DNA of 64,000 bases from Deltaproteobacteria bacterium (GTDB taxonomy: Bacteria; Desulfobacterota; Desulfuromonadia; Desulfuromonadales; Geopsychrobacteraceae), in assembly GCA_024279255.1 (NCBI GenBank), contig JAJRRT010000078.1, forward strand, positions 1 to 64,000, in the 5' to 3' direction. Numbering within the stretch: the first letter of the stretch is position 1; every line of letters begins with the position of its first letter. Both the position numbers and the translations under genes were made by a program. The notes under the pieces were generated by a model that saw nothing but the letters and a program-made list of their open reading frames with translations, made no database searches and was not told the origin of the DNA. Below, piece after piece: positions 6,899 to 60,060 of the stretch.

Positions 6899-8185
6899 TT
6901 ATTTGAATGCTGCCAGCTTAAGCTCAGCTTCCAGCTGTTCTCCCATAACGGCAGTCTCGCGTCGTTGCCAGTCGCTAGGCTGCTGCTTATAGCTAATCAG
7001 CCCGGAGACCGGACAGACAAAACTGCAGACCATGCAACTCAGACACTTATCCTCAATCAGAGTGGGACGCCGCAGCAGCGGATCCCACTCGAGCGCCTGC
7101 CCGGCGGAGTCGTTGCAGACGGTCAGGCATTGCCCGCAACCGACGCAGCGATCAAGATCATAACTGGCGACTCCCTGGCTCTCGAGATCGAATTTGTCGG
7201 TATCTTGCAGGGTGGGCAGGGCCTTGCCGACCAAATCGACTACCCGTTCGATATCACGCTCGACCATGTAGTCGGAAAGCCCTTCGATCATGTCCTCCAC
7301 GATACGATAACCGTAGTGTATAATTCCAGTGGTCACCTGGATGGTGGAGGAGCCAAGTAGAATGTACTCGAGGGCATCGATCCATGTTTCGATGCCGCCC
7401 TGACCGGATAGGGGAAGCCCAAGCCTTTCGCATTTGGCCAAGTCGGCAATGAAGCGCAGCCCGATCGGCTTGACCGCTGGGCCAGAAGTTCCACTAATCG
7501 CGCCGATACCGGCAACCTTTGGGCGCACCGTCCAGTCATCAAGCCCGACCTGGGAGAGCCCCCTGACGGTGTTGATGGCAGCGATGCCATCGGCCCCACC
7601 CTGTTTTGCATAAAGGGCTGGCTCGGTCATGTCGGTGATATTCGGCGTCATTTTTGCCAGCACCGGGATCGAAACCGCCTTCTTGACCGTCTCGGTAAAC
7701 TTCTCAATCAAATGGTTGGCCTGACCAACTTTGTGGCCGGAACCTTCAATTGTCATATGAGGACAGGAGAAGTTGAGCTCAAGCATGTCCGCACCATTGT
7801 CCTCCGAGGCTTTCGCCAGGTAGGCCCACTCCTCGTTCGAGAAACCCATGATGCTTGAGATGATGATTTTGTCCGGATAGTTCTCCTTCAAATAGAGAAA
7901 ATCGAGCAGGTTGTCCTTCAGGGAGCGATCCGATATCTGCTCGACGTTCTGTAGGCCGACCAGCCGCTTGCTGCCGTAATGATACGGGTTCATCCTAGGT
8001 GAAGGATGAACAATGCGCACCCGGTCAGAGTTAAGGGTCTTGAAGGCAACCCCACTCCAGCCCGCCTCGAAAGCCTTGGCGACCATCTCCGCGCTATTGG
8101 AAACGGGTGACGATGAGAGCAGGAAGGGATTCTGAAATTTAACTCCGCAAAAATCGACGGACAGGTCAACTTTTTTTCCGGCCAT
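6899..8185 (-). CDS. preA: NAD-dependent dihydropyrimidine dehydrogenase subunit PreA
   Basis: DHOD-like domain plus C-terminal 4Fe-4S motifs (CVGCGQCLTVCNDSA, CLSCMVCSFVCPV). Confidence 0.93.
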   Translation of the reverse strand: MAGKKVDLSVDFCGVKFQNPFLLSSSPVSNSAEMVAKAFEAGWSGVAFKTLNSDRVRIVHPSPRMNPYHYGSKRLVGLQNVEQISDRSLKDNLLDFLYLKENYPDKIIISSIMGFSNEEWAYLAKASEDNGADMLELNFSCPHMTIEGSGHKVGQANHLIEKFTETVKKAVSIPVLAKMTPNITDMTEPALYAKQGGADGIAAINTVRGLSQVGLDDWTVRPKVAGIGAISGTSGPAVKPIGLRFIADLAKCERLGLPLSGQGGIETWIDALEYILLGSSTIQVTTGIIHYGYRIVEDMIEGLSDYMVERDIERVVDLVGKALPTLQDTDKFDLESQGVASYDLDRCVGCGQCLTVCNDSAGQALEWDPLLRRPTLIEDKCLSCMVCSFVCPVSGLISYKQQPSDWQRRETAVMGEQLEAELKLAAFK

Positions 8186-8187
8186 GA

Positions 8188-9525
8188 TTATGCCTCCTTC
8201 TTCGACAGATATTCGATGATGGCCATGGCCGCCACCTTCCCGTCATTGACAGCATCCACCACCAAGGCGGGCCCTCGAACGATGTCGCCACCGGCAAAGA
8301 TGCCTTCGACCGACGTTGTCAATGTCGCGGCATCCGCCTGAATCAACCCATTCTGATCCACATCGACATTCGGATACCAAGACGGAGAACCGCTCTCAGC
8401 CTGATTACCGATCGCCTCGACAACAATGTCAGCATCCAATACCCACTCGGAACCTGCAATCGCCTTCGGTATCCTGCGACCGGTGCCTTTCGCTTTTTCC
8501 AAGCGGGTCCGAACCAGCCGCAAGCCCTCAATTTTTTGCTGGTGATTAATCACAAAGTCGACAGGCTGATTCAACAGCAGAAAATGTACACCAGTCTCAA
8601 GTGCTTCGATCCGTTCAACCTCTTCGGCCGGCATCTGCACAAAGGAACGGCGATAAACCAGATAAACGTCTTCGGCACCGAGCTTCACGGCCGCTTCAGC
8701 ACAGTCAATTGCCACAGAACCGCCACCGATCACTGCAATGGTACTCCCCTTGATCTTGTTGCGAAGAGCCTCAAACTGCTCATCGCGTAACGAGGCCAGG
8801 TACTCCACAGAAGTCATGAGACCGTCCACATTGCTGACCTCAGGGTGCAATCTCGACGCAGCCCAGAGCCCGGTTGCGAGAAAGACAGCGTCGTAGCCAT
8901 TTTCTAGAAGTTCTTCGACCTGACCCGCCTCTCGGAGCGGGGCGTTGCAGCGAAACTCGACCCCCAGCTCCTTGATCTCCTGCAGTTCGTGCTCGAGAAA
9001 ATCGACATCGTAACGATACGATGGAACCCCGTAGCGGATCACCCCACCTGCCTCGGGGCGCGCTTCGAAGATGGTAGCCTGGCAACCCTGCTTCGCCAGT
9101 TCGGCCGCGCAACTGAGCCCTGCAGGCCCCGACCCGACTACTGCCACTTTCTTCCCATTCGACTCAGAAGCTTCTAAAACCTTGATATTACGCTCCCAGG
9201 AGTGCTCCACCAGAAACCTCTGGATCTTGGCAATCTCGACTGGACGGCTGATTTCGGTCGCGCAGCACTCTTTTTCGCAGAGCCTGTCCGCAGGACAGAG
9301 AACACCGCAAGCCCCGCCGAGGATATTATTTTCCTTGATGGTTCGAATGGCGCCAGTCACATTCTTCAGCCGAAGCTTACGGATAAAGGTCCCAGGATCG
9401 GTATCGGCTGGACATGCCTTGGAACAGGGTGCGTCATGACACAAGAGACAGCGCTCTGATTCGGCAACAGCCTGATCAAGAGAAAATCCCTTGGCCATCC
9501 TTTGGAAATTTTCAGGGTCGTACAC
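8188..9525 (-). CDS. preT: NAD-dependent dihydropyrimidine dehydrogenase subunit PreT
   Basis: N-terminal Cys clusters, FAD motif VVGSGPAGLSCAAEL, second NAD(P) motif VIGGGSVAIDCAEAAVKLG. Confidence 0.92.
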   Translation of the reverse strand: MYDPENFQRMAKGFSLDQAVAESERCLLCHDAPCSKACPADTDPGTFIRKLRLKNVTGAIRTIKENNILGGACGVLCPADRLCEKECCATEISRPVEIAKIQRFLVEHSWERNIKVLEASESNGKKVAVVGSGPAGLSCAAELAKQGCQATIFEARPEAGGVIRYGVPSYRYDVDFLEHELQEIKELGVEFRCNAPLREAGQVEELLENGYDAVFLATGLWAASRLHPEVSNVDGLMTSVEYLASLRDEQFEALRNKIKGSTIAVIGGGSVAIDCAEAAVKLGAEDVYLVYRRSFVQMPAEEVERIEALETGVHFLLLNQPVDFVINHQQKIEGLRLVRTRLEKAKGTGRRIPKAIAGSEWVLDADIVVEAIGNQAESGSPSWYPNVDVDQNGLIQADAATLTTSVEGIFAGGDIVRGPALVVDAVNDGKVAAMAIIEYLSKKEA

Positions 9526-9700
9526 GGCGTAGCCTCCTTGCGTAGAGCGTAATTGTTAGTAATTCTAAATTGGTCATCAGGAACATGGATAGTGTTTGGA
9601 GACCGCCTGGCATCATCCATACAGAGCAGGACAGGAACGCTATTGGCGATGTGAAGAAAGTGGGGCCGAGTCACGGATGACTCGACCCTTTCATCTTAAA

Positions 9701-10468
9701 TTAGAATACCCACTTCACCATGGCCTGAGGAAGGGATTCATCGACTCCATCTATGCCGAATTTGTTGTGCCAATAGATGTATTCCACACCAGCCCAGAGA
9801 CTGTCGGATGCTCCCCAGAAATTTCCAACATCGAGCAGCAGGCGTGGTTGAAAATCGATATTGAACTCGGTCGTCCCTTCCGAACCGGCAATATCGGCAA
9901 ACCCTTCAAAGAGCATTTTTGCAGAACCGACAGTGAAAGGAAGTGCCCATACAGGGGTGATCTGGTAAGTCTGACCACTCTCATTCGGGTTGTCACGCAC
10001 GTAGATGTTGATATCGGCAAATGCGAATTTGGGAAGATCTAGACTGAAGCCTACTCCGTAAAGATAGTTATGGGAATAGATCCCCATCTCTAGGGTTCCC
10101 GCCAGCAAAACATCCTTAACGAAGGCAAAGGAAAGGTCTTTGCCAGAGATTTTACTGATGCTCAGTCGTGGGGAGAATTCAGCATACAGGTCGTTGGTAC
10201 TATCCTGCCCATCCTTCAAAGGATTGATGACGTCAAGAAAGAAAAAGTTATCTCCATACTTCCAGCCGTTAGCATGTTCGAAGGTCAGAGTCGAGCGCGT
10301 GTTATCTCCCAGTTCGTAGCCGTTTCCGTAAAGTAACTGGATGTTACTCGTTTGCCACTGGGCAGCCCCGGCCAAGGCCTCGGTGGTACCACATACCGCC
10401 AACAGGGCGATCATGACAAGAATGGTTGCAATCCGATTCAGGCTCTGGTGGAAAATTGTGAAGTTCAT
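9701..10468 (-). CDS. Tsx-like nucleoside-specific outer-membrane channel
   Basis: Signal peptide, beta-barrel pattern, terminal aromatic (MVKWVF), QTSNIQLLYGNGYELGD...R(S)TLTFEHANGWKYGDNFFFLD as in Tsx-type proteins. Confidence 0.75.
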   Translation of the reverse strand: MNFTIFHQSLNRIATILVMIALLAVCGTTEALAGAAQWQTSNIQLLYGNGYELGDNTRSTLTFEHANGWKYGDNFFFLDVINPLKDGQDSTNDLYAEFSPRLSISKISGKDLSFAFVKDVLLAGTLEMGIYSHNYLYGVGFSLDLPKFAFADINIYVRDNPNESGQTYQITPVWALPFTVGSAKMLFEGFADIAGSEGTTEFNIDFQPRLLLDVGNFWGASDSLWAGVEYIYWHNKFGIDGVDESLPQAMVKWVF

Positions 10469-16901: not shown

Positions 16902-17837
16902 TCAGACCTTCTCGATTTCAGGTTTTCCCAGTAGACCACTGGGCCGGAAGATTAGGACAAGCACAAGAAGAGCGAATGCAAACACGTCCTTGTAGTCGGA
17001 ACTGACGAAACCAGAAAATAGCCCTTCTGCCATGCCGAGGACGATACCGCCAAGCATAGCTCCGGGAAGCGAGCCTATTCCGCCCAGAACTGCGGCGGTG
17101 AAGGCCTTGATACCAATCACGAAGCCGATGAAGAAATCGAAGGAGCCGTAATTGAGGGTTACCAGTACCCCCGCAAGGGCCGCCATTGAAGAGCCGATGA
17201 CGAATACCGTCGAAATAATCCGGTTAGTATTGATGCCCAGGATTGCCGCCATTTTTCGGTCTTGTTGAGTGGCTCGACACTGACGACCCAAGGAAGTTTT
17301 CAGGATAATGTAGGTCAAGGCCGCCATACCGATAAACGAAGCGATCACGATCAAGATCTGGATATAGGTGATCTGAACGAACTGTTCCTCTCCTCCGAGC
17401 CGCACCACGCCATCGATCAGAATTGGCACCCCTTGATTTCTTGCACCCTGGCTGATCTGAACGTAGCTCTGCAGAACCAGCGACATACCGATTGCCGAGA
17501 TCAGTGGCGCCAGTCGTGTCGATCCGCGCAAGGGGCGATAAGCGACCCGCTCGATTGCCCACCCGTAGGCGCCAGTGATCGCCATGGCCAAAAATAATGT
17601 CACGAGCAGGACAACTGGCAGGGAGGTAATACCTAAAGAGAAGATCAAAGACAGGATTATCGCCGTGAGATAGGCTGAGATCATGTAGATGTCGCCATGG
17701 GCAAAATTGATCATGCCGATGATACCGTACACCATGGTGTAGCCGATGGCGATGAGGCCGTAGATCGATCCCAGGGTCAGGCCGTTCAGAAGTTGTTGAC
17801 CAAGTATGTAAATATCCATCGCGTGCCCTCTGTTCAC
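16902..17837 (-). CDS. livH: ABC transporter permease LivH
   Basis: LNGLTLGSIYGLIAIGYTMVYGIIGMINFAHGD. Confidence 0.93.
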   Translation of the reverse strand: MNRGHAMDIYILGQQLLNGLTLGSIYGLIAIGYTMVYGIIGMINFAHGDIYMISAYLTAIILSLIFSLGITSLPVVLLVTLFLAMAITGAYGWAIERVAYRPLRGSTRLAPLISAIGMSLVLQSYVQISQGARNQGVPILIDGVVRLGGEEQFVQITYIQILIVIASFIGMAALTYIILKTSLGRQCRATQQDRKMAAILGINTNRIISTVFVIGSSMAALAGVLVTLNYGSFDFFIGFVIGIKAFTAAVLGGIGSLPGAMLGGIVLGMAEGLFSGFVSSDYKDVFAFALLVLVLIFRPSGLLGKPEIEKV

Positions 17838-40185: not shown

Positions 40186-40662
40186 ATGAATGATCTGATG
40201 ACGATTGCCGGTCGAATAAAAGAAGTGCGTGCCAACAAAACCCAACAGGCATTCGCTGCCCCAATGAAGGCCCACCTTAATACTATTGGCCGCTGGGAGC
40301 GCGGCGAAAGGGTACCAGATCATAGGGACTTGCTTAAGATCCTGGAATCTAATCCCGACATCTCCCCCGCCTGGCTGCTGGCCGGTGAAGGGCCCATGTA
40401 TCGACTGCACCGCGCTGATTCTGGCGCAGAAAAAGCCATTGACTGGATTTTATTGCAACTCTGCGAACTAAAACAGATGACACTCGCATTTTCCGAGGCT
40501 GTCAGGCAAGGAGATGAGTCCGGTAAACCCAAACTCGACAATTATCGGCTCTACGGGGTCTTGCTGCAAAAAATCGAAGAGATCACCACGGCGGTCGATA
40601 GCGTTCAAAAGAACGTCAGCGGCGAGCAAAACGCATCCAGGAATGAAGGAGGTCACTCATGA
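40186..40662 (+). CDS. XRE-type HTH phage protein
   Basis: TQQAFAAPMKAHLNTIGRWERGERVPDHRDLLKILESNPDISPAWLLAGEGPM; start MNDLM at 40186. Confidence 0.75.
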   Translation: MNDLMTIAGRIKEVRANKTQQAFAAPMKAHLNTIGRWERGERVPDHRDLLKILESNPDISPAWLLAGEGPMYRLHRADSGAEKAIDWILLQLCELKQMTLAFSEAVRQGDESGKPKLDNYRLYGVLLQKIEEITTAVDSVQKNVSGEQNASRNEGGHS

Positions 40663-42767
40663 TCGTCAGCGTCGCTGATATCGCCAAGGCCCTGAGCGTC
40701 TCCGGCCAAGCCATCCGCAAGCGGCTGACCAAAGATGAATGGCAGCCAGAGACCGAGCGCGGCAAGGGTGGCTCTCACCTTTTTAAGCTGGATAAATTGC
40801 CGATGAGGGATGGCGACCGGCTGAAAATCAAAAATTATCTACTCGATCAGCAGATAGCCGCACTGCCAGAAACCTGCTGCCCGCTCCCGGCGATCAAAAC
40901 AAACAACGCCCTGGTGGTTGCCGAGGATCTCCCCGCTCCGGCATCTCTTGCCAAGTGGCAACGCGACACCATGGACGCACGTTTCCAAATATTGATGATT
41001 GTTGACCAGTTGGCCCAGACTACCAGCCTCAACAAGGCCATCGATCGGGTTATCGATCAGTCTAAGAATGGACTACTCCCCGAGAATGTCGCGGCGCTGA
41101 TCCAGATCGCCAATGCTCGCAGCGGCAAAGGCGAAGGTGAAGGCAAGCGCACACTCAGCCGCCGTACCCTGTTTCGCTGGCGTGAACTGCGTGCGATCGG
41201 CACCACCGCGGTGGCCCCGGTTGAATTGAAAAAACGTCCAATCCCCGCTTGGGCTCCATTGTTTCTTAAGTGTTACCAGCGCCCGCAAAAGCCATCTGTG
41301 CCGATGGCGCTTGAAACCTTAGAAACCGTCATCACCGCCGATATCCCAATGCCGAGCGAATCACAGGCGCGGCGTTTTTTGAACAAAATGAGCAAGGTCG
41401 ACCGTGAAAAAGGGCGCCGCAGCCATAAAGAAATGCGCGCCCTCAAGCCCTACCGCCAACGCGACACCAGCGATCTGTTACCGCTCGATGTTTGCCAGTG
41501 CGACGGGCACAGCTTTAAGGCCCGCATCGCCCACCCGGTGCATGGTAAGCCCTTTCACCCGGAGGTTTGCGCGGTGATCGACGCCGCCACTCGCGTGGTG
41601 ATCGGCTGGTCGGCTGGCTTGGCCGAAAGTGCGCAGACCGTCGCCGACGCCCTGCGTCACGCCATCGACGTCAACCCCAACAACGAGCGCGGCGGCATCC
41701 CCGCGATCTTCTACACCGATCCCGGCAGCGGCAATAAAGCCAAGGTCAACGCAAACCCAGTGTTCGGGCGTTATGCGCGGCTTGGTATCACCTTTAAGAC
41801 TGGCATTGTCGGCAACAGTCAGGCGCGTGGTCTGGTTGAGCGCCTTCAGCAATCGCTCTGGATCAAGGCTGCCAAGCAGCTACCCACCTTCACCGGCAAA
41901 GATATGGACAGCAGCGTTGAGCACAAGACCTACAAGCTGCTTATGTCCGACGTGCGCGGCACGACCAACAGCAACAAGCTGCCCAGCTGGCCTCAGTTTC
42001 TCGACCTGTGTCAGCAGGCGGTCGACCGTTACAACAACACTCCACATAGCAGCTTGCCGAAGATCACCGACCAAAACGGCAAGCGCCGCTACATGACACC
42101 TAACGAAATGTACGACAGCTTTACCGCCACCGGTTGGCTACCCTCCACCGTCGATCAGCAAGAACTCGCCGACCTATTTCGCCCACGGGTGCAGGTTAAA
42201 ACCTTTCGCGGCAACGTGCGGCTGTTCGGCAACATCTACAGCAACAGCGCATTGCAACACCACAACCGCGAGCAGGTGTTTGTCGAGTATGAGCCACAGA
42301 ATGGCCAGTTTGTTTACGTGCGCGATATGGATGACAGGCTGATCTGCAAGGCCGAATTCGAAGCCAATAAATCCAGCATGTTCCCAGTCAGCGCCATTGA
42401 GGACGCGACTGAAAAAAGAACATCCGGTCAGCTCAAACGCCTGGCCTACAAACAAGACAATGTACTGGATGAACGACGCGGCGTGACCGAGATTTTCCAA
42501 AGCCCGTTGCTTATCGCCGAGGCACAAGCCCAGGCCACCGCCGAGCTGATGCAACTCGAAGCCGAAGACGCCAACGTCACCAAGCTACCGACCGACAATG
42601 CCGGACGGTTCAATTTGTACCGCAAGCTGACGGGCTTAAAGACCGCAGGCGAAGAGCTAGATCCAGACGAAGCCGAATGGTTGACCAAATATCTACAGAG
42701 TTCAGAAGGCAAATCAATGGTGGAGTTTGATCATGACTTTGGGTTGGACACCGCTAAAAACAACTAA
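40659..42767 (+). CDS. Mu-type DDE transposase A
   Basis: N-terminal Mu HTH domain, rve core with candidate D/D/E (VCQCDGH, YTDPGSGN, GLVERLQ), C-terminal Mu domain. Confidence 0.93.
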   Translation: MIVSVADIAKALSVSGQAIRKRLTKDEWQPETERGKGGSHLFKLDKLPMRDGDRLKIKNYLLDQQIAALPETCCPLPAIKTNNALVVAEDLPAPASLAKWQRDTMDARFQILMIVDQLAQTTSLNKAIDRVIDQSKNGLLPENVAALIQIANARSGKGEGEGKRTLSRRTLFRWRELRAIGTTAVAPVELKKRPIPAWAPLFLKCYQRPQKPSVPMALETLETVITADIPMPSESQARRFLNKMSKVDREKGRRSHKEMRALKPYRQRDTSDLLPLDVCQCDGHSFKARIAHPVHGKPFHPEVCAVIDAATRVVIGWSAGLAESAQTVADALRHAIDVNPNNERGGIPAIFYTDPGSGNKAKVNANPVFGRYARLGITFKTGIVGNSQARGLVERLQQSLWIKAAKQLPTFTGKDMDSSVEHKTYKLLMSDVRGTTNSNKLPSWPQFLDLCQQAVDRYNNTPHSSLPKITDQNGKRRYMTPNEMYDSFTATGWLPSTVDQQELADLFRPRVQVKTFRGNVRLFGNIYSNSALQHHNREQVFVEYEPQNGQFVYVRDMDDRLICKAEFEANKSSMFPVSAIEDATEKRTSGQLKRLAYKQDNVLDERRGVTEIFQSPLLIAEAQAQATAELMQLEAEDANVTKLPTDNAGRFNLYRKLTGLKTAGEELDPDEAEWLTKYLQSSEGKSMVEFDHDFGLDTAKNN

Positions 42768-42828: not shown

Positions 42829-43566
42829 GTGCCACACAATCACCAGATCGTCAACAGCATCGCCCCGTTAACCAACGTGGCCATGCTCCACGCCGCGACC
42901 AAGCGGGCGCAGACCTACTGCCGCGAGAACGGCGGCATGTTTGTGGTCTTTCACGGTCACGCCGGGTACGGCAAGACCACCGCTTGTAACTATGTACGAG
43001 GCAAAGAGCGTGGATACCGTGTTGAGTGCTGCGACCACTGGGGCCGCAAAGCAGTATTGCAAGCCATTCTTTATGAAATGAGCATACCGGCGGCACACAA
43101 TATCAACGACATGTTTAACCAGGTTGTCGACCAGTTGCGCAACTCAGGCCGCACCCTGTTTCTGGATGAAGCCGACCATCTGGCCAAGAACAGCTGTATC
43201 GAGATGGTGCGCGGCATCATGGACAAATCCCGCATCGTCGTTGTGCTGTCTGGCGAAGAGATGCTGCCCCGCAAGCTAGAGCGCTGGGAGCGCATCCACA
43301 GCCGCATTCTTGAGCCCGTCGCCGCCCTGCCTTCGAGCCTTGAGGATCTCGGCCACCTTGCCCGCCTTTATTGCCCAGGGATAGAGATCGCCAACGACTG
43401 GCTCACAGAGCTGCACATCCAGACAGGTGGCAACACCAGGCGCGTTGTCGTCAACCTGAACCGTGCTCGCAATGAAGCCGAAGTTATTGGAGATATCAAC
43501 CTGAAAGGCTGGGGCAATCGCGGCTGGTACACCGGCAAAAGCCCTTCCCCCAGAAGGGCGGTGTGA
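42829..43566 (+). CDS. MuB-type transposition ATPase
   Basis: FHGHAGYGKTTA Walker A, LFLDEADHL Walker B. Confidence 0.92.
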   Translation: MPHNHQIVNSIAPLTNVAMLHAATKRAQTYCRENGGMFVVFHGHAGYGKTTACNYVRGKERGYRVECCDHWGRKAVLQAILYEMSIPAAHNINDMFNQVVDQLRNSGRTLFLDEADHLAKNSCIEMVRGIMDKSRIVVVLSGEEMLPRKLERWERIHSRILEPVAALPSSLEDLGHLARLYCPGIEIANDWLTELHIQTGGNTRRVVVNLNRARNEAEVIGDINLKGWGNRGWYTGKSPSPRRAV

Positions 43567-46781: not shown

Positions 46782-47197
46782 TGGCTGAAAAGACTTTGAC
46801 AAAAGAAGAGTGGGAGCAGGTCGCCAAGGCGCTGTCTGGCTATACCGGCGCGGTTGCTTTGGTGGTCGATGGCCGCAAAGTCTCCTTCGCACGCGGGCTG
46901 GTCAAGAAAAACCAGTTGGGCATCATGACCTACATCGACGGCACGTTCGAGGGTGCCTGGCTTTCCCATAAAGAACCGACACCTGAGACGGCTTTTTTGA
47001 AGGTCATTTCCAAGTTCGTCTGGAAAGAATCAGCCAGATCAAAATTTAAAAAGATGAGCAAGCGGCAGCTCAAACAACTCGATATCGACCCAGATGAAAA
47101 ACATTATGGCCGCACCCCGATATGGGCCAGCGCTTCACAGATCCGCCGCCACTACGAAAAGACCTTCAACTCGATCGAACTGCTGGAGGCCATCTGA
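46781..47197 (+). CDS. Hypothetical phage protein
   Basis: 138 aa, ATGA coupling. Confidence 0.6.
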   Translation: MAEKTLTKEEWEQVAKALSGYTGAVALVVDGRKVSFARGLVKKNQLGIMTYIDGTFEGAWLSHKEPTPETAFLKVISKFVWKESARSKFKKMSKRQLKQLDIDPDEKHYGRTPIWASASQIRRHYEKTFNSIELLEAI

Positions 47198-47643
47198 TGG
47201 CTCGATACAAGTTCACCCCAAAAATCAGCGGCACCCAGATCAAGATCATCCACATCGCCAAGGGTCAGATCGGCATGACAGATGAAGACTATCGCGGTTT
47301 GCTCGCCGACATGTTCAAGGTCGAAAGCTCCAAGCAGCTCAGCGCCGATCAGGCCGCACAGCTGATCGATGAACTCAAGACCAAAGGCTTCGAGCTAAAG
47401 ACCAAAGGTCGTCCAGCCAGGCTGAAAAAACCGACCCGTGTCAGCCGTGACAAGCAGCTGCAAAAGGTCGAAGCGCTGCTCACGGTCGGCGGCAAGAGCT
47501 GGGCCTACGCCGACGGCATGGCCAAGCGCATCTGCAAGGTCGACTCAATCAGCTTCGTGCCAGACGATCAGCTTTACAAGATCATCACCGCCCTGCGTAA
47601 ACAAGCCCAGCGCGAAGGCTGGGATCTCTCAGGCGAAAACTAA
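47197..47643 (+). CDS. GemA-family (Mu gp16-like) regulatory protein
   Basis: IKIIHIAKGQIGMTDEDYRGLLADMF...QLYKIITALRKQAQREGW. Confidence 0.85.
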   Translation: MARYKFTPKISGTQIKIIHIAKGQIGMTDEDYRGLLADMFKVESSKQLSADQAAQLIDELKTKGFELKTKGRPARLKKPTRVSRDKQLQKVEALLTVGGKSWAYADGMAKRICKVDSISFVPDDQLYKIITALRKQAQREGWDLSGEN

Positions 47644-49039: not shown

Positions 49040-49396
49040 ATGCAAGAACACGCCGACAAGCGCGGGGTCCAGGCCCTGCTCGATATCGCCACCACCGTCA
49101 GTGAAGCCCTGGTCAAGTTCGGCACCGCCGCCGCTCGCGCCGAAGATATCGGCCTGCTCACCGCAGCCGCCCTGCGCGATACCTATGGCGGTGAGCAGCT
49201 CTACATCCCCAAAGCCCTCGGGCTGGCCATCAGCGATCGCGATCGTGAGATCTACTCGAAGTACGACGGCAACAACACCTTCGCCCTCAGCAAAGAGTAC
49301 GGACTCACCGAACGGCAGATCTACATCTGCATCGGCCGGATCCGTGAAGAAGAAACTGTCAAGCGTCAGATGCGCCTATTCGAGAAGGATGTCTGA
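49040..49396 (+). CDS. mor: Mor-family middle transcription activator
   Basis: GEQLYIPKALGLAISDRDREIYSKYDGNNTFALSKEYGLTERQIYICIGRIREEE. Confidence 0.88.
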   Translation: MQEHADKRGVQALLDIATTVSEALVKFGTAAARAEDIGLLTAAALRDTYGGEQLYIPKALGLAISDRDREIYSKYDGNNTFALSKEYGLTERQIYICIGRIREEETVKRQMRLFEKDV

Positions 49397-49551
49397 TGGA
49401 TAAACAATTCATAGAATGCTGTGGCTGCGGACAGACGTTCAGCACGCCAACCCGCTGCCTAAACCACGTTGTCAAATGTGTAGCTATCGACAGGAAGATT
49501 GCGTCAGAAAAACATCGCCGCGCGCGCCTATTAACCCAGGAGGCAAAATGA
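49396..49551 (+). CDS. Small Cys-rich protein
   Basis: MDKQFIECCGCGQTFSTPTRCLNHVVKC: CxxC...CxxHxxxC zinc-finger-like. Confidence 0.5.
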   Translation: MDKQFIECCGCGQTFSTPTRCLNHVVKCVAIDRKIASEKHRRARLLTQEAK

Positions 49552-49850
49552 AGAAGCTCAAGATCTACCTCGCCGGACCCATGACCGGCCTGCCAGAGTT
49601 CAACTATTCGGCCTTCAATACCGAGGCTGCGCGCCTGCGCGCAGCAGGCTACAGCGTCGAGAACCCCGCCGAAGTCGAAGCCCCAGCCCCCAGCAAGTGG
49701 ACTGACTACATGCGTCGCTCCATCACCAAGATGATGCGCTGCAACTGCGTCGCCAAGCTCCCAGGCTGGAAAAGATCACGCGGTGCCCGCATCGAAGTAT
49801 GGCTCGGTCGGCTGCTCGGTTTTAAGGTCGTCCAGGTTGAATGCCTTTAG
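49548..49850 (+). CDS. DUF4406 / nucleoside 2-deoxyribosyltransferase-like protein
   Basis: KIYLAGPMTGLPEFNYSAFNTEAARLRAAGYSVENPAE. Confidence 0.8.
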   Translation: MKKLKIYLAGPMTGLPEFNYSAFNTEAARLRAAGYSVENPAEVEAPAPSKWTDYMRRSITKMMRCNCVAKLPGWKRSRGARIEVWLGRLLGFKVVQVECL

Positions 49851-49851
49851 C

Positions 49852-49957
49852 GCATAACGTAACCGGATAAGCGGCGTGGAACTGCTTTACGAGCGACACT
49901 GAGCTTATCAAATTTAAAACAACTGCCTCGCACGTCCGCTTGATTTTCTGGTTGTAT
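49852..49957 (+). repeat. attC-like site 1
   Basis: GCATAAC-GTAACCG-GATAAGCGG ... CCGCTTGAT-TTTCTG-GTTGTAT. Confidence 0.45.
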
Positions 49958-49985
49958 TGCGTGGCTGAAAGAAAAGGAAAATGTA

Positions 49986-50153
49986 ATGAGAGAGGTAACT
50001 GTTGAACTTGTAACAAAAGTGCCATGCGAAGCAACTGATGCACAGGTTGAAGAGTGGGTAAAATACCAAACTGGCGTATATGGGGGGATGAACAAAGATA
50101 ACCCATTAGCCGAATATGATCTTGACGGGATAGACGCAACAGTTTTGTGCTGA
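49986..50153 (+). CDS. Small hypothetical protein (55 aa), cassette-like
   Basis: MREVTVELVTKVPCEATDAQVEEWVKYQTGVYGGMNKDNPLAEYDLDGIDATVLC; stop codon 3 nt before attC-like site 2. Confidence 0.5.
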   Translation: MREVTVELVTKVPCEATDAQVEEWVKYQTGVYGGMNKDNPLAEYDLDGIDATVLC

Positions 50154-50156
50154 GCA

Positions 50157-50205
50157 ATACAACACCGAGATAGGCGGGGTCTCCCCGCTTATCGACTGGT
50201 TATGC
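50157..50205 (+). repeat. attC-like site 2
   Basis: ATACAAC-ACCGA-GATAGGCG-GGGTCTCCC-CGCTTATC-GACTG-GTTATGC. Confidence 0.55.
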
Positions 50206-50248
50206 GCGCCCTTATGCTTAACCTTTAACTGATGGAGGAATGAAATAG

Positions 50249-50527
50249 ATGAAATCTTTAAACATGAAAGTAGCCTGCCTGTTCTTGTTCTCTTTGATTA
50301 GCTTGCTATCTGGGTGTACTGCCCTGGAAATAGCTGACATGATCTTTGACGACGACTGCCGCTACCGTGGAACTGTGGAGCAAGTTGACCACCGTGACAG
50401 CCAAACGTTCGTAAAATTCGACGATAGTAATACCGTGTACCAATGTGCCACCGCCGAATGGGTAGCCGTAGGCGGCTGGATTGAGGTTAGAGATATGCAA
50501 AATAATGGCTGTATTTTCTCCAGATAA
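50249..50527 (+). CDS. Small lipoprotein, cassette-like
   Basis: MKVACLFLFSLISLLSGCTA lipobox. Confidence 0.6.
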   Translation: MKSLNMKVACLFLFSLISLLSGCTALEIADMIFDDDCRYRGTVEQVDHRDSQTFVKFDDSNTVYQCATAEWVAVGGWIEVRDMQNNGCIFSR

Positions 50528-50573
50528 CAACCATGATCAGCGCGTGACAACGCTAACAAGGAGGACAAACGAA

Positions 50574-50834
50574 ATGGACTGTGGCCAATTTTGCCCAAAT
50601 GATAGTTTCCCGGTGCCCTGCTCAACGTGTGACCGCGCATGGATGAACAAGCCAGCAGCACAGCAAGTTTCATCCGCTGGATCTATTCGGCAGGATCAGA
50701 TGAAACCGCCAAGTTCAAACCGAAAATACCGTTGCGCCCAGTGTGAAGAGTTGTGCGACCCAGAGCGGCATGACGGAGCCTACGCATCCGAAACGATGAA
50801 GCCCGTTTGCCCTAGCTGTGAATCGAGTTGGTGA
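50574..50834 (+). CDS. Cys-rich zinc-ribbon-like small protein
   Basis: CGQFC..CSTCD and YRCAQCEELCDPE...PVCPSCESSW. Confidence 0.45.
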   Translation: MDCGQFCPNDSFPVPCSTCDRAWMNKPAAQQVSSAGSIRQDQMKPPSSNRKYRCAQCEELCDPERHDGAYASETMKPVCPSCESSW

Positions 50835-50889
50835 TAAGAATAGAACGAAAAACGAGAACCGGCAGCGATGCTGAAAAAAGGAGACAGAA

Positions 50890-51069
50890 ATGAAGTATAT
50901 CGTAGAATACTCTTATGAATTTAAGGGATCGACAGAAATCGAAATTGATGCAGACTCAAGGGAAGAAGCAGAGAAGAAGGCGCTTAAACTAGCGGAAGAT
51001 GACGCCGACGCCAAACGTCTGTCGTCGCGATTCGATTGTGAAATTGATGGAATATACGAGGCCGAATAA
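50890..51069 (+). CDS. Small acidic hypothetical protein (59 aa)
   Basis: MKYIVEYSYEFKGSTEIEIDADSREEAEKKALKLAEDDA...; stop followed immediately by attC-like site 3. Confidence 0.5.
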   Translation: MKYIVEYSYEFKGSTEIEIDADSREEAEKKALKLAEDDADAKRLSSRFDCEIDGIYEAE

Positions 51070-51072
51070 GAA

Positions 51073-51122
51073 ATACAACACCAGGTTAACTGGCCATCAA
51101 CAGGTTCATCCCTTGGTTATGC
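51073..51122 (+). repeat. attC-like site 3
   Basis: ATACAAC-ACCAG-GTTAACTGG...GGTTCATC-CCTTG-GTTATGC. Confidence 0.45.
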
Positions 51123-51178
51123 GAGCCCTTTATGATTGACATTTAAAACCGCCACGGCGTATATCTGAAACCTTAGAC

Positions 51179-51214
51179 AAAAGCCCCTTGAGCCCAGCGC
51201 CCAAGGGGCTTTTC
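51179..51214 (+). terminator. Rho-independent terminator
   Basis: AAAAGCCCCTTG-AGCCCAGCGC-CCAAGGGGCTTTT. Confidence 0.85.
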
Positions 51215-51319: not shown

Positions 51320-51892
51320 ATGAAAAATAAAACTCGCATCCTGATCGATCCAGGTCATCCGGCCAAAGACAACCCCGGCGCGATTCACGCCGGAGTTCAC
51401 GAAGCCGCCATCAATTTGCAGGTCGCTATCCGTCTCGGTGATCTACTCGAAGCTGCTGGCTTCGCACCACGCTACACCCGCAAGACCAGCCTGCCGGTTG
51501 AGCTCTACGACCGGGTCCACATCGAGCACCTGACCGAGCCAGACCTGTTCGTCTCACTGCACTGCAACAGCTTCAGCTCACCCGGTGTCAACGGTATCGA
51601 GGTCTTCACCAGCATCGGCCACACCAAGGCCGACCACGCCGCCGAGTGCGCCTGCCAAGCGCTCAAAGGCATCTTCCCTGACAGCCGCTTCCGCGCCGAT
51701 ATCTCAGACGGAGACCTCGACAAAGAGGCCGACTTCTACGTGCTCAACAACACCCTCTGCCCGGCCTACCTGGTCGAAATGGGCTATCTCAGCAATGACG
51801 CAGAACGCGCCAAGCTGACCGACCCGGCCTACCAGGACCAGATCGCCGCCGCACTGTGCAGCGGTATCATCGACTGGAGTGAGACCAAATGA
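51320..51892 (+). CDS. N-acetylmuramoyl-L-alanine amidase (phage endolysin)
   Basis: ILIDPGHPAKDNPGA, SLHCNSF, YLVEMGYLSN amidase_3 motifs. Confidence 0.9.
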   Translation: MKNKTRILIDPGHPAKDNPGAIHAGVHEAAINLQVAIRLGDLLEAAGFAPRYTRKTSLPVELYDRVHIEHLTEPDLFVSLHCNSFSSPGVNGIEVFTSIGHTKADHAAECACQALKGIFPDSRFRADISDGDLDKEADFYVLNNTLCPAYLVEMGYLSNDAERAKLTDPAYQDQIAAALCSGIIDWSETK

Positions 51893-53940: not shown

Positions 53941-54501
53941 ATGGGCAAGCGTCAACAATCCAGCATCGACCTGCTGCCCGACGAGGTCCGCGACCAGCTC
54001 AACGAACTGCTGCGCGATCGCAAGGTCACCCAGCTCGATGCGGTCGAACGGATCAATCAGATCCTCGCCGACATGGACAACCCCGAGCGACTCAGCAAGT
54101 CGGCGGTCAACCGTTACGCCGTGCGCATGGAGCATATCGGCAAGCGGATGCGTGAAAGCCGTGAAGTCGCCGACGCGCTGATCGGCAAGCTCGGCAGCCA
54201 GCCCCAGGGACAGATCGGAAGCATGGTCAACGAGATCCTGCGTAGCGTCAGCTTCGAGCTATCGCTGCAGCTGACCGACGGCGAGCTGGATGAAAAGAAC
54301 GCACCGGCTGTTGCTGGCATCCTCAAAGATCTGGCGCTTACCACCATGCGCCTGGAGAAGGCCGCCAACCTGAATGTCGAACGCGAGAAAGAGATCCGCG
54401 CGCAGGCATTGCTTGAGGCCGCAGAGAAGGTCGACACCGCCGCCACCGCAGCCGGAGTCACCAAAGAGGTCATCGCTAAAATCCATGAGGCATTGATGTA
54501 A
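53941..54501 (+). CDS. DUF3486-family protein (Mu gp27-like small terminase)
   Basis: SSIDLLPDEVRDQLNELLRDRKVTQLDAVERIN. Confidence 0.82.
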   Translation: MGKRQQSSIDLLPDEVRDQLNELLRDRKVTQLDAVERINQILADMDNPERLSKSAVNRYAVRMEHIGKRMRESREVADALIGKLGSQPQGQIGSMVNEILRSVSFELSLQLTDGELDEKNAPAVAGILKDLALTTMRLEKAANLNVEREKEIRAQALLEAAEKVDTAATAAGVTKEVIAKIHEALM

Positions 54502-55924
54502 TGGCAAACGGCAACGCCAAAATCATACCGATCAACCCGTCGGGGATCTTTCTGCCCTATCAGGCCAGGTGGATCAAAGACCAGAGCCGCCTCAAGCTGA
54601 TGGAGAAGGGCCGCCAGATCGGTCTCTCCTGGTGTACGGCATGGGCCTGTGATGAGCGCACCGCCATGCAGGGCAACAAGCACGACCAGTGGGTCTCAAG
54701 CCGTGACGACATTCAGGCGCGGCTCTTTATTGAAGACTGTAAGAAGTGGGCGAAGGCTCTGCAGATCGCCGCCGAGAGCCTCGGAGAAATTGCGATCGAC
54801 AAAGAGAAAACCTTTTCGGCCTACGTGCTGGAGTTCGTCAACGGCAAGCGCATCCACTCCATGAGTAGCAACCCCGACGCCCAGGCAGGCAAGCGCGGCG
54901 GACGTGTGCTCGATGAATTCGCGCTGCATCCAGATCCTCGCAAGCTCTGGTCAATCGCTTATCCAGGCATCACCTGGGGCGGCTCGATGGAGATCATCAG
55001 TACCCATCGCGGTAGCAAGAACTTCTTCAACGACCTGGTCCGCGAAGCGCGAGAGCAAGGCAACCCGAAGAAGATCAGCCTGCACCGCGTCACCCTGCAA
55101 GATGCCCTTGATCAGGGTTTCCTCTACAAGCTGCAGCAAAGCCTGCCGCTCGAAGATCAGATCCAGGCGATGGACGAGACCGCCTACTTCGACTTCGTCA
55201 AGTCGGGCTGCGCCGATGCTGAATCATTTCTGCAAGAGTACATGTGCGAACCGGCCGACGATGATGTCGCCTTCTTAGAATATGACCTGATCGCTTCGGC
55301 CGAATACGGCAGCGACATCGACTGGCAAACCCAAGAAGGCGGGCGACTCTTCGCCGGGATCGACATCGGCCGTAAGCAAGACCTCACCGTGCTGTGGCTG
55401 CTCGAACTGCTCGGCGACGTGCTCTACACCCGCGACATCATCTGCTTGCAGAACATGCGCAAGAGTGAGCAAGAGGCCATCCTCTACCCGATCATGGCCA
55501 AGTGCGAACGGGTCTGTATGGATTACACCGGCCTCGGTATCGGCTGGGGTGATGACGCCCAGGACAAGTTCGGCGAGGACCGTGTCGAATGCGTCACCTT
55601 CACCGGGCGCGTCAAAGAGGCGATGGCCTACCCGGTGCGATCGAAAATGGAAGATCGCCTGCTGCGCATCCCTTACGACAAGCACGTCCGCGCCGATCTG
55701 CGTAGCGTCACCAAGCAGACCACCGCTGCGGGCAACATCCGCTTCACCGCTGAACGCACGCCCGACGGTCACGCTGACCGCTTCTGGGCGCTGGGTCTCG
55801 CGGTTGAGGCAGCAAACTCACCGTCGCAGGAATACGCCTACCACCCGGTCGGCAAAACAACGACAACCACGATAGACCGGTGCGCACCACCGCCGGTCTC
55901 GGCATCAAGAAAGGGCTCTGGTAA
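54501..55924 (+). CDS. Large terminase subunit (Mu gp28-like), with probable -1 frameshift near 55854-55857
   Basis: LPYQARWIKDQSRLKLMEKGRQIGLSW, GIDIGRKQDLTVLW; the ORF tail to 56084 overlaps the portal gene and looks out of frame. Confidence 0.82.
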
Positions 55925-57516
55925 TGGCCTTAGTCGATCAATACGGGCGGAAGATCCAGCCCAAAGAATTAGTCCGCGAGATCGCCGGGCCGACCTTGGC
56001 AGGTATCCGCTCGATCTGGAACCAGTCGGTCGCCTCGGGTCTCACCCCGCAGCGCCTCGCCGGATTGCTGACCGCTGCTGCTGATGGTGATCACAACGAG
56101 TACCTGTCACTGGCTGAAGAGATGGAGGAACGTGACCTGCACTACGGCGCTGAACTCGGCAAGCGCAAGCTGGCTGTCTCCCGACTGCCGCTGTCGGTCG
56201 AGTCGTATAGCGACGAAGAGCACGACCTCAAGCTGACCGACGCCGTGCGTGACATGATCCGCAAGCCCGGTTTTCGTGGTCTGCTCAAAGATCAGCTTGA
56301 CGCCCTGGGCAAAGGATACGCCGTTGCAGAGATCATCTGGGACAAGAGCGGTGGCATCTGGACCCCATCCCGCTACGCCTACCGTGATCCGCGCTTCTTT
56401 CAGTTCGATCGCGTCAGCCGTAGCGAACTGCGCCTGCGGGATGAGATGGGTGGTGTGGATGGGCTACCGCTGGAGCCATACAAGTTCATCGTCCACACCC
56501 CGAAGATCAAGAGCGGTCTGCCGATTCGTGGCGGGCTGGCGCGTGTCGCGGCCTGGGCGTTCATGTGCAAGGGCTACACGGTTAAAGACTGGCTGGCGTT
56601 TGCCGAGGTCTTCGGTATGCCGATGCGCCTGGGCAAGTACCGCGCCGGGGCAACGCAGGGCGACATCAACGTCTTGAAGACCGCCGTCGCTAACCTTGGG
56701 TCAGATGCCGCCGCCGTCTTTCCGGAGTCGATGCAGATCGAGCTGGTCGAAGCGGCCAAGGGATCTGGCGCGAACAGTTTTTTTAAGATCCTCGCAGAGT
56801 ATCTGGATGATCAGGTCAGCAAGGGGATTCTGGGCCAGACCGCCTCATCAAGCGGCACACCGGGCAAGCTGGGCAATGACACCCTGCAGTCTGACGTGCG
56901 CGACGACATCCGCGATGACGACGCAGAGCAGTTGGAAGATACCCTCAACCGCGACCTGGTGCGCGCCCTGATCGACCTGAACTATGGCCCGCAGAAGAAC
57001 TATCCCACCATTCAGTTACGTGCCTCGCAGCCCGAAGATATCACTGCCCTGGTGACATCGCTGAAAGAGCTGGTTCCGCTGGGGATGAAGGTCGAGCAGA
57101 GCGTAGTGCGTGATCGCCTTGGCCTGCCAGACCCTGCCAAGAATGCCAAACCAGAAGACTTGCTCGGTGTGCCTGCTGCAGCTGCACCGGTCCCAGCCCT
57201 CAACCGTGAGCAGCCGTGCAGCTGCCCGAGCTGTGCCAGCACCAAGATCGCGCTGAACGCTGAGGCCGCTGCCTTTGTCCCAGACAACCCAAGCCGCCTG
57301 GCAGACAAACTGGCAACCGACGCCGCGCCGCTGATGGACGCGCTGATCAACCAGGCCGCGCAGATCGTCAACACGGCAGGCACGCTGCAAGAGATCCGCA
57401 CCGGCATCGAGCAACTGGCGAAAGATTATGACATCACCGATCTGGGCACGCTGCTCGCGCAAGCCTTCGCGCTGGCCAGCCTGACCGGTAGCGCCGAGGT
57501 GACCGATGAAAATTGA
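55924..57516 (+). CDS. DUF935 portal protein (Mu gp29-like)
   Basis: PTLAGIRSIWNQSVASGLTPQRLAGLL...GKYRAGATQGDINVLKTAVANLGSDAAAVFPE. Confidence 0.9.
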   Translation: MALVDQYGRKIQPKELVREIAGPTLAGIRSIWNQSVASGLTPQRLAGLLTAAADGDHNEYLSLAEEMEERDLHYGAELGKRKLAVSRLPLSVESYSDEEHDLKLTDAVRDMIRKPGFRGLLKDQLDALGKGYAVAEIIWDKSGGIWTPSRYAYRDPRFFQFDRVSRSELRLRDEMGGVDGLPLEPYKFIVHTPKIKSGLPIRGGLARVAAWAFMCKGYTVKDWLAFAEVFGMPMRLGKYRAGATQGDINVLKTAVANLGSDAAAVFPESMQIELVEAAKGSGANSFFKILAEYLDDQVSKGILGQTASSSGTPGKLGNDTLQSDVRDDIRDDDAEQLEDTLNRDLVRALIDLNYGPQKNYPTIQLRASQPEDITALVTSLKELVPLGMKVEQSVVRDRLGLPDPAKNAKPEDLLGVPAAAAPVPALNREQPCSCPSCASTKIALNAEAAAFVPDNPSRLADKLATDAAPLMDALINQAAQIVNTAGTLQEIRTGIEQLAKDYDITDLGTLLAQAFALASLTGSAEVTDEN

Positions 57517-58216
57517 GGCGATCTTCCACCTGCCCTTTGCCGAAGCGGTCGCGGCCCTACGTGACAAGGCCAACGTACCGACTGCGCGCTGGGATGATCT
57601 GTGGAAAGAAGAACACGCCAGCGGATTTATGATTGCCGGAGCGATGAAGGCCGACCTGCTCGCCGATCTGCGCGACTCTGTCGACCGTGCCATCAGCGAA
57701 GGGATTACCCTCGAAACCTTCCGCGCTGAGTTCGCCGCTACAGTCAAAAAGCACGGTTGGTCCTACAACGGCGGCGAAGGATGGCGCAGCCGGGTGATCT
57801 ACGAGACCAACATCCGCACCACGTATCAGGCTGGTCGCTGGCAACAGATGACCGACCCTGATGTGCTCAAGTTTTATCCCTATCTGGAATACCGTCACGC
57901 CGACAGCGCCAACCCACGCTTGCAGCATGTCGCCTGGGATGGCCTGACCCTGCCTGCTGATGATCCCTGGTGGCAGACTCACTATCCACCCAACGGCTGG
58001 GGCTGCAAGTGCAAAGTCTTTTCTGCGGGGAAACGTGATCTGGCCAGAGCAGGCAAGACCACGCCAGACACCGCACCGGCGATTGTCATTGACCAGGAGA
58101 CCGGCGCACCTGAGGGGATCGGTAAGGGCTGGGATTACAACGTCGGCGAAGCCCGCCAACAGGCGCAGAAGCAAGCGCTGGCTGATGCCGAGGCAAGGGT
58201 GAACGGTAATGGCTGA
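57506..58216 (+). CDS. Phage head morphogenesis protein (Mu gp30/F-like)
   Basis: RVIYETNIRTTYQAGRW...ADDPWWQTHYPPNGWGCKCKV. Confidence 0.9.
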   Translation: MKIEAIFHLPFAEAVAALRDKANVPTARWDDLWKEEHASGFMIAGAMKADLLADLRDSVDRAISEGITLETFRAEFAATVKKHGWSYNGGEGWRSRVIYETNIRTTYQAGRWQQMTDPDVLKFYPYLEYRHADSANPRLQHVAWDGLTLPADDPWWQTHYPPNGWGCKCKVFSAGKRDLARAGKTTPDTAPAIVIDQETGAPEGIGKGWDYNVGEARQQAQKQALADAEARVNGNG

Positions 58217-58986: not shown

Positions 58987-60060
58987 ATGCGCCACGTAAA
59001 CAAGATCGGCATCATCGGCAGTGGTCACATTAGTGGTCAGCTGCTCAAAGCATTGCACCGCACCGCTTTGCCCGATGGCTGCGAGCTGATCGCGCTCAAC
59101 TTCGAGATGCCGCCCGACGGCAGCGTACCCGAGTGGATCGAACTGATCCCAGGTGGTCAGATTATCGGTGGTCGTGATGGCCGCACCTTTATCAACGATA
59201 TGCCGGACGAGGTTGTCGACGCACTGCTGGTCGATGCCAAAGATATCCCGCTCGATTGGGAACATTCGACCGAGTTGTGCGCGCCAGAAGGTAAACCGGC
59301 ACCCGCTGCGGCATGGATCAAAGATCTTGAAGTGCGAGACGGCGGCGCGATCTGGGGCCGGGTCGAATGGACCGAAAAAGGGAGAGCCTCGGTCGCCGGG
59401 AAAGAATACCGCTATATCTCGCCGGTCTTCATCTACGAAAAAGAAACCCTGCGGATCAAGCGCATCACCTCGGCCGGGCTGACCAATCAACCGAACCTTC
59501 GGCTTCAAGCCCTCAATCATCAACAGCACGAATCAAACAAGGAGAACACCATGAACTGGAAGCAACTATTGGCCAAGCTCGGACTCGCCGAGGACGCCAC
59601 CGTCGACCAGGCATTGAATGCGATCGGATCTTTGCAGACCGATCTCGCCACCGCCACCAACCGGGCAGCAACCCCGAGCCTCGATAAGTTCGTGCCCCGT
59701 GCCGACTACGACGCCACCCTGACCCGCGCCGCCAACGCCGAGCAGAAACTGACCGACATCGAGACCGCCACGCTGGAGACCTCGATCAACAGCGAGGTCG
59801 ACGAGGCGCTCAAGGCCGGTAAGATCGCCCCGGTCTCTAAGGATTATTACCTCGGTATGTGTCGCCAGGAAGGTGGCCTCGAGCAGTTCCAGGAATTCAT
59901 CAAGACCGCTCCGGTCATCGCTGCTGATACCAACCTAGACGGCAAACGGCCCGCCGGTGACGGCAAGTCTCTGAACGCCGAAGAGCAGCAGGTCGCTGCC
60001 ATGTTCGGCAACAGCGCCGAAGACATCCAGAAATACTGCGGCGAGGGTTCGAGCAGCTAA
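58987..60060 (+). CDS. Mu gpI-like prohead protease with C-terminal scaffold
   Basis: IPLDWEHSTELCAPEGKPAPAAAWIKDLEVRDGGAIWGRVEWTEKGRASVAGKEYRYISPVF. Confidence 0.88.
   Translation: MRHVNKIGIIGSGHISGQLLKALHRTALPDGCELIALNFEMPPDGSVPEWIELIPGGQIIGGRDGRTFINDMPDEVVDALLVDAKDIPLDWEHSTELCAPEGKPAPAAAWIKDLEVRDGGAIWGRVEWTEKGRASVAGKEYRYISPVFIYEKETLRIKRITSAGLTNQPNLRLQALNHQQHESNKENTMNWKQLLAKLGLAEDATVDQALNAIGSLQTDLATATNRAATPSLDKFVPRADYDATLTRAANAEQKLTDIETATLETSINSEVDEALKAGKIAPVSKDYYLGMCRQEGGLEQFQEFIKTAPVIAADTNLDGKRPAGDGKSLNAEEQQVAAMFGNSAEDIQKYCGEGSSS
59551..60060 (+). CDS. Nested in-frame scaffold protein (Mu gpZ-like)
   Basis: ATG at 59551 (MNWKQLLAKLGL) preceded by AAGGAG, inside gpI frame. Confidence 0.65.
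   Translation: MNWKQLLAKLGLAEDATVDQALNAIGSLQTDLATATNRAATPSLDKFVPRADYDATLTRAANAEQKLTDIETATLETSINSEVDEALKAGKIAPVSKDYYLGMCRQEGGLEQFQEFIKTAPVIAADTNLDGKRPAGDGKSLNAEEQQVAAMFGNSAEDIQKYCGEGSSS

Follow-up and report, generated by a model that had tools for sequence, protein, structure and literature searches.

The block that lies between the mor and amidase genes of a Mu-like prophage in the window (the whole stretch of 64,000 nucleotides that was analysed, which belongs to a draft assembly of 108 contigs) is, judging from its sequence, quite probably an integron cassette cluster without an integrase of its own (CALIN) that sits in the accessory slot of the prophage and in which an integron integrase acting in trans would have placed a cassette. 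Integrons are usually regarded as bacterial devices that phages acquire accidentally.

The Mu-like prophage and its accessory slot

The Mu-like prophage context that had been proposed for the cluster was borne out by the Pfam domains of the surrounding genes. The prophage segment extends over positions 39717-60060 on the plus strand, on which transposase A (40659-42767, Mu-transpos_C), the AAA transposition protein B (42829-43566, AAA_22), GemA (47194-47643, GemA), Mor (49040-49396, Mor), an amidase (51320-51892, Amidase_3), a Mu gp27-like protein (53941-54501, Phage_Mu_Gp27), a terminase (54501-55955, Terminase_6), a MuF-like protein (57506-58216, Phage_Mu_F) and a Mu I-like protease (58987-60060, Mu-like_Pro) are encoded. 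A Mu-type transposase, the ATPase B, GemA, Mor and Mu head genes, by which a Mu-like phage is recognised, are thus all present. The position of the cluster between mor and the lysis genes was also correct, as the block sits between mor and the amidase gene, and the slot is closed before the lysis genes by a terminator-like hairpin (51179-51213, plus strand), which is a 15-nt inverted repeat running into T. Such a hairpin precedes the amidase gene in both Mu-like prophages of the genome, in the second one at about 17625-17668 (L168).

A comparison across related Mu-like prophages revealed that the block is not fixed; their mor-amidase slot is variable and holds unrelated genes or nearly none. 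An empty site was sought in the close relatives of the window prophage, none of which was near enough in DNA, the slot being filled by unrelated genes. This is similar to the accessory (moron) loci of Mu-like phages, in which variable accessory genes likewise lie between the middle and late regions, but in the window prophage attC sites delimit some of the cargo.

The attC-like sites

The three elements of the original prediction are present at positions 49852-49957 (site 1), 50157-50205 (site 2) and 51073-51122 (site 3), each close behind the stop codon of an ORF (1, 3 and 3 nt from stops that end at 49850, 50153 and 51069). They are not of equal standing: site 1 is full-length, site 2 is short and has no extrahelical base, and site 3 is decayed at best. 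Site 1 has the complete R''-L''-L'-R' architecture on the minus strand, with R'' ATACAAC, the spacer CAGAA, L'' AATCAAGCG with an extrahelical C, L' CGCTTATC and R' GTTATGC; its L box, AATCAAGCG/CGCTTATC, is canonical. The top strand of a classical attC has a 5-nt spacer and then L'', in which the extrahelical base is found. Because this base appears in L'' on the minus strand of site 1, the minus strand is its top strand, and the plus-strand ORFs are therefore antisense to the attC; a placement of site 1 on the plus strand was rejected on the same grounds. Site 1 is a genuine attC that reads on the minus strand. The pair ATACAAC and GTTATGC, with a gap of 35-96 nt, does not occur again in the 3.5-Mb genome, and no exact copies of the site 1 core were found in IMG/VR.

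Two covariance models, both built without any sequence from the window, were used to score the sites. R1 comprised 17 classical attCs (11 from plasmid-borne class 1 integrons and six from the Shewanella M16-3 prophage) and is simplified, in that its arms were shortened and some rows lost one spacer base for column alignment. R2 comprised 41 attCs that were extracted by pattern from the integron arrays of same-class relatives, and is independent of the window in sequence but not in the choice of its members, because the source loci were found by their resemblance to part of site 1. An intI gene was on the contig for the R2 arrays G004, G007:C53 and G050; G007:C71 and G115 were left out of this check.

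Over the whole genome, R2 gave eight matches, which included site 1 (minus strand, 47.1 bits, E=1.8e-9), whereas R1 gave no match to site 1, which is long, and had a single match at E<2 in the 3.5 Mb, namely site 2, likewise on the minus strand, at 23.4 bits and E=0.2; all E-values of the two models are rough. Site 2 was also the only R1 match in 204 kb (E=0.012), and in 4 kb with the filters off it came first (minus strand, 23.4 bits, E=2.3e-4) and site 3 second (minus strand, 12.2 bits). The covariance models, which had been proposed as a check on the cluster, thus returned matches, R2 at site 1 and R1 at site 2. The plus-strand reading of the sites was not supported, as site 1 scored on the minus strand and R1 gave only 4.7 bits to site 2 and 4.3 bits to site 3 on the plus strand. 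Qi et al. applied a threshold of 20 bits for attCs with a model of their own, and scores from different models are not strictly comparable (PMC9892861). Sites 1 and 2, which lie 199 nt apart, provide the at least two nearby attCs of a CALIN, with site 3 excluded and with site 2 reaching only E=0.2 genome-wide.

It is most improbable that the elements are terminators or other hairpins that follow small ORFs rather than attCs. The location of sites 1-3 close behind stop codons and the GC-rich hairpin of site 2 would agree with terminators, but the hairpins have no following T-run, models free of window sequence pick these positions, and site 1 aligns over its full length to the model of 41 attCs from the integron arrays of relatives. 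For site 1, the terminator reading is largely refuted. An Rfam scan of the region gave only one weak chance match.

In site 2, which is 49 nt long, the predicted R''-L''-L'-R' boxes are present, but the extrahelical base is absent and the strand is minus rather than plus; the site is nearly symmetric, and the minus strand is favoured by the score only. Its fold is better than that of most shuffled sequences (z of -2.1 on the plus strand and -1.4 on the minus strand). Site 3 (minus strand) is a decayed attC or a duplicate of outer boxes; with 12.2 bits and no attC hairpin upon folding (z of about 0.4), it is not supported as the working attC that it had been taken for. The flanks ATACAACACC and GGTTATGCG(C/A)GCCCTT that had been described as common to sites 2 and 3 are real, and these outer flanks, of 14 nt and 17 nt, are 93-94% identical; further exact copies of the outer flank AAGGGCNCGCATAACCA were not found in the bacterial class. 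On this account, sites 2 and 3 might be copies that arose by simple local duplication and not recombination sites, which we consider unlikely. Duplication explains at most the common flanks and not the rest, as the bases between the flanks differ and site 2 alone fits the attC model well (23.4 versus 12.2 bits). Site 3, for its part, could derive from a local duplication.

The 305-bp cassette

One clean cassette of 305 bp, attC site 1 included, is located at positions 49858-50162 on the minus strand. Read on this strand, it starts after the G of G|TTGTATTGC, and its end consists of R'' GCAATACAAC and attC site 1. The two features expected of a cassette, a start behind the G of G|TT and a 5' end complementary to its own R'', are both present, the latter over 10 of 10 bp. 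Complementary ends of 10 bp are what a formerly circular unit should have, and inverted ends alone do not fix its orientation. Similar complementarity between own ends was observed in two cassettes of a prophage in a related genome (G013; 10 and 10 bp), in three cassettes on contig C59 of the same genome as the window (10, 6 and 9 bp) and in two on contig C79 (8 bp, and 9 bp with one G-T pair). When these eight cassettes, which were picked by eye and whose boundaries came from the models, were considered jointly, the true pairing was the only one among 40320 permutations that attained the observed sum of complementarity.

The cassette carries an ORF of 55 aa (49986-50153, plus strand), which has a weak match to phrog_8773 (E=5e-4) and no relatives that could be found in phage records and IMG/VR. 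The sense orientation of a cassette gene relative to its attC is usual, though not strictly defining. The 55-aa ORF departs from it; it lies antisense to its attC, an orientation that prevails in phage-type arrays, and has the same direction as the phage genes. For its reading, the flipped gene would rely on the rightward transcription of the phage and not on an integron promoter.

The prediction that the ORFs of the block are cassette cargo held for the 55-aa ORF, which lies within the clean cassette, but was not borne out for the DUF4406 gene (49548-49850, plus strand; Pfam DUF4406, 90.9 bits), which flanks site 1 on the left and has no cassette boundary visible in the sequence on its own left side. 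To the right of the cassette, whose upstream neighbour is site 2, no matching ends were found in the stretch from 50163 to about 51122, and the start of this second block does not pair with R'' of site 2. The stretch contains, all on the plus strand, a lipoprotein-like ORF of 92 aa (50249-50527), a Cys-rich ORF of 87 aa (50571-50834) and an acidic ORF of 59 aa (50890-51069), the last two in the same possibly decayed cassette block, and may represent fused or older, decayed cassettes. The lipoprotein-like ORF has a paralog of 67% identity beside the integron array on contig C59, and no relatives of it were found in viral contigs.

Integrase and co-resident prophages

The absence of an integrase, which was part of the original prediction, is true of the window prophage (a tblastn search of its contig, C92, with the C59 integrase gave no match) but not of the genome, as an intI gene is found on contig C59. 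The C59 IntI scores 304 bits against TIGR02249, which is above the cut-off, and has all of the catalytic residues (R136, K161, H265, R268, H296 and Y305). The prophage that encodes it differs in kind from that of the window and has tyrosine recombinases, a Mor-family gene and a portal gene, and the 634-aa ORF that follows intI looks like a large terminase, though it has no PHROG match. The opposite strand from intI carries three attCs. In the related prophage of G013, the IntI is 87% identical to that of C59, and the junction beside intI, CTGTTTAGATC(C/T)TG|TT, a putative attI between intI and the first cassette, is conserved between the two. Over 102 nt, site 1 and the attC located 5' of the G013 phage intI are 95% identical, and the match stops at the recombination junctions. 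A further 3.7-kb contig of the window genome carries several tyrosine recombinase genes in tandem (G000:C30:519-3564).

The other Mu-like prophage of the genome, on contig C79, has a comparable order, with Mor followed by two strong attCs (plus strand, 88 and 58 bits) and then the amidase. Its cassette genes are in the sense orientation to the attCs. One of them, a DUF4917 gene, matches the PADLOC candidate family PDC-S21 (367 bits), and a metallophosphoesterase-STAND gene, located in the slot but past both attCs that the model supports, matches PDC-S60 (157 bits); both are candidate defence families.

Phage-type integrases and flipped cassette genes

Relatives of the C59 IntI, 55-61% identical to it, were found on 15 IMG/VR contigs, and a few more came from MAG contigs. 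In a tree of 75 rows, the 16 phage-labelled rows (14 IMG/VR contigs, C59 and G013) and five unlabelled MAG rows formed a single clade (100/100). Its branch measures 1.01 changes per column and separates it from the other IntIs of the host order, from IntI1 and from the IntIs of Shewanella and Vibrio phages; the sampling of IntIs is biased to relatives of C59, because the C59 protein served as the starting query. The phage label alone takes six changes on the tree because of the five MAG rows, whose flanks contain genes similar to those of viral contigs, which suggests that these are prophages as well. A phage transposase, a transposition protein and GemA are encoded upstream of intI in L071, and a phage transposase is present in L029; the clade therefore also occurs in transposable phages. 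The same-class IntIs outside of the clade are about 35-45% identical to the C59 IntI. An integron-integrase-like protein annotated as xerD is encoded by virus Rctr41k from a methane-oxidising enrichment (KX853513.1, 4680-5678); its place is unsure, because it grouped with IntI1 on a long branch.

An analysis of the longest ORF between sites, which is a crude criterion and for which the attI positions were placed by eye, showed that 16 of the 20 decided phage-type cassettes were antisense and four were sense, with one tie, while in the same-class arrays 30 of the 36 cassettes were sense and six antisense (16:4 versus 6:30, Fisher p=6e-6, the cassettes within one array not being independent). 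The four methyltransferase ORFs with Pfam support (one in L017, one in L026 and two in L029) are all antisense, of which the two in L029 overlap an attC and are absent from the automatic count. Adjoining these two methyltransferase cassettes of L029, an IMG/VR transposable-phage integron, are two cassettes (7845-8456 and 9291-9902) whose ORFs are of equal length and have identical first 70 residues, which is probably the result of a cassette duplication.

The chromosomal-type arrays of the same class (L118-L122) share the attC family and the G|TT junctions with site 1 but, unlike the phage-type arrays, are long and have mostly sense-oriented genes. In the integrons of the Treponema type, as in those described here, intI and the cassette genes are read in the same direction; however, in Treponema it is intI that is turned towards attI, whereas here it is the cassette genes that are turned, intI keeping its usual place relative to attC (PMC3607928).

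Origin and significance of the cluster

The cassette of the window prophage would have been placed by an integron integrase in trans, through recombination at the G|TT point of an attC. As its source, the phage-type IntI of the C59 prophage in the same genome, or that of a relative, is the likeliest, because site 1 shares 95% identity with an attC that neighbours such an intI and the gene is flipped as in the phage arrays; a chromosomal IntI of the host clade would be the alternative source. It is also conceivable, albeit rather doubtful, that the block is an immobile relic in which site 1 and perhaps site 2, as genuine attCs, mark an old insertion, possibly by a chromosomal IntI, and the genes are now ordinary accessory genes, with the C59 IntI uninvolved. 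The decay of site 3, the missing extrahelical base of site 2 and the lack of an integrase in cis are consistent with a relic, as are the occurrence of the same attC family in the arrays of same-class relatives and the ordinary sense orientation of the C79 cassettes. However, site 1 is intact and its cassette has matched ends of 10 bp, its closest copy was found in a phage integron, and the flipped orientation agrees with the phage arrays.

Among 10,705 phage genomes, Qi et al. counted three complete integrons, one In0 and 17 CALINs, and they reported that phage attCs were active with IntI1; as in the window prophage, there were attC clusters without an integrase, some of them with DNA methyltransferase cassettes (PMC9892861). 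Temperate phages in that study also had a few complete integrons. According to the part of it considered here, the phage integrons were of class 1 or close to the chromosomal integron of the host genus (PMC9892861), whereas the IntIs described here form a deep clade of their own, most of the cassette genes are flipped, and a single genome has two Mu-like prophages and one intI prophage. Phage CALINs are hence already known, but no description of a phage-dedicated IntI lineage or of flipped phage cassettes was found in searches of open-access papers.

The phages described here may swap cargo genes by machinery that is known for spreading resistance genes. A broader reading, which we advance tentatively as something a little short of an even proposition, is that Geobacter-related bacteria harbour a phage-dedicated integron lineage with its own IntI clade, flipped cassettes that are read by the phage and an exchange between co-resident prophages by IntI in trans; it covers both transposable and other phages and a cargo that includes methyltransferase and candidate defence genes. 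If this were true, integron recombination would be a regular route of cargo exchange for phages, and bacterial cassette pools, candidate defence genes included, would be tied to transposable phages, which reach many genomic sites. It would also be predicted that the IntI from one prophage moves the cassettes of another.

Single attCs were also observed at other loci. In a more distant genome, a Mu-like prophage (L176, 9043-9101; G142:C6) has one attC (R2 E=4.6e-9, R1 26.6 bits) and no intI within the 18 kb that were fetched. In the window genome, single attCs are found at G000:C4:18518-18634, C14:6045-6149 and C18:38168-38279, and the first of these, which lies near the contig end, is preceded by a 453-aa ORF that resembles a KAP-type NTPase.
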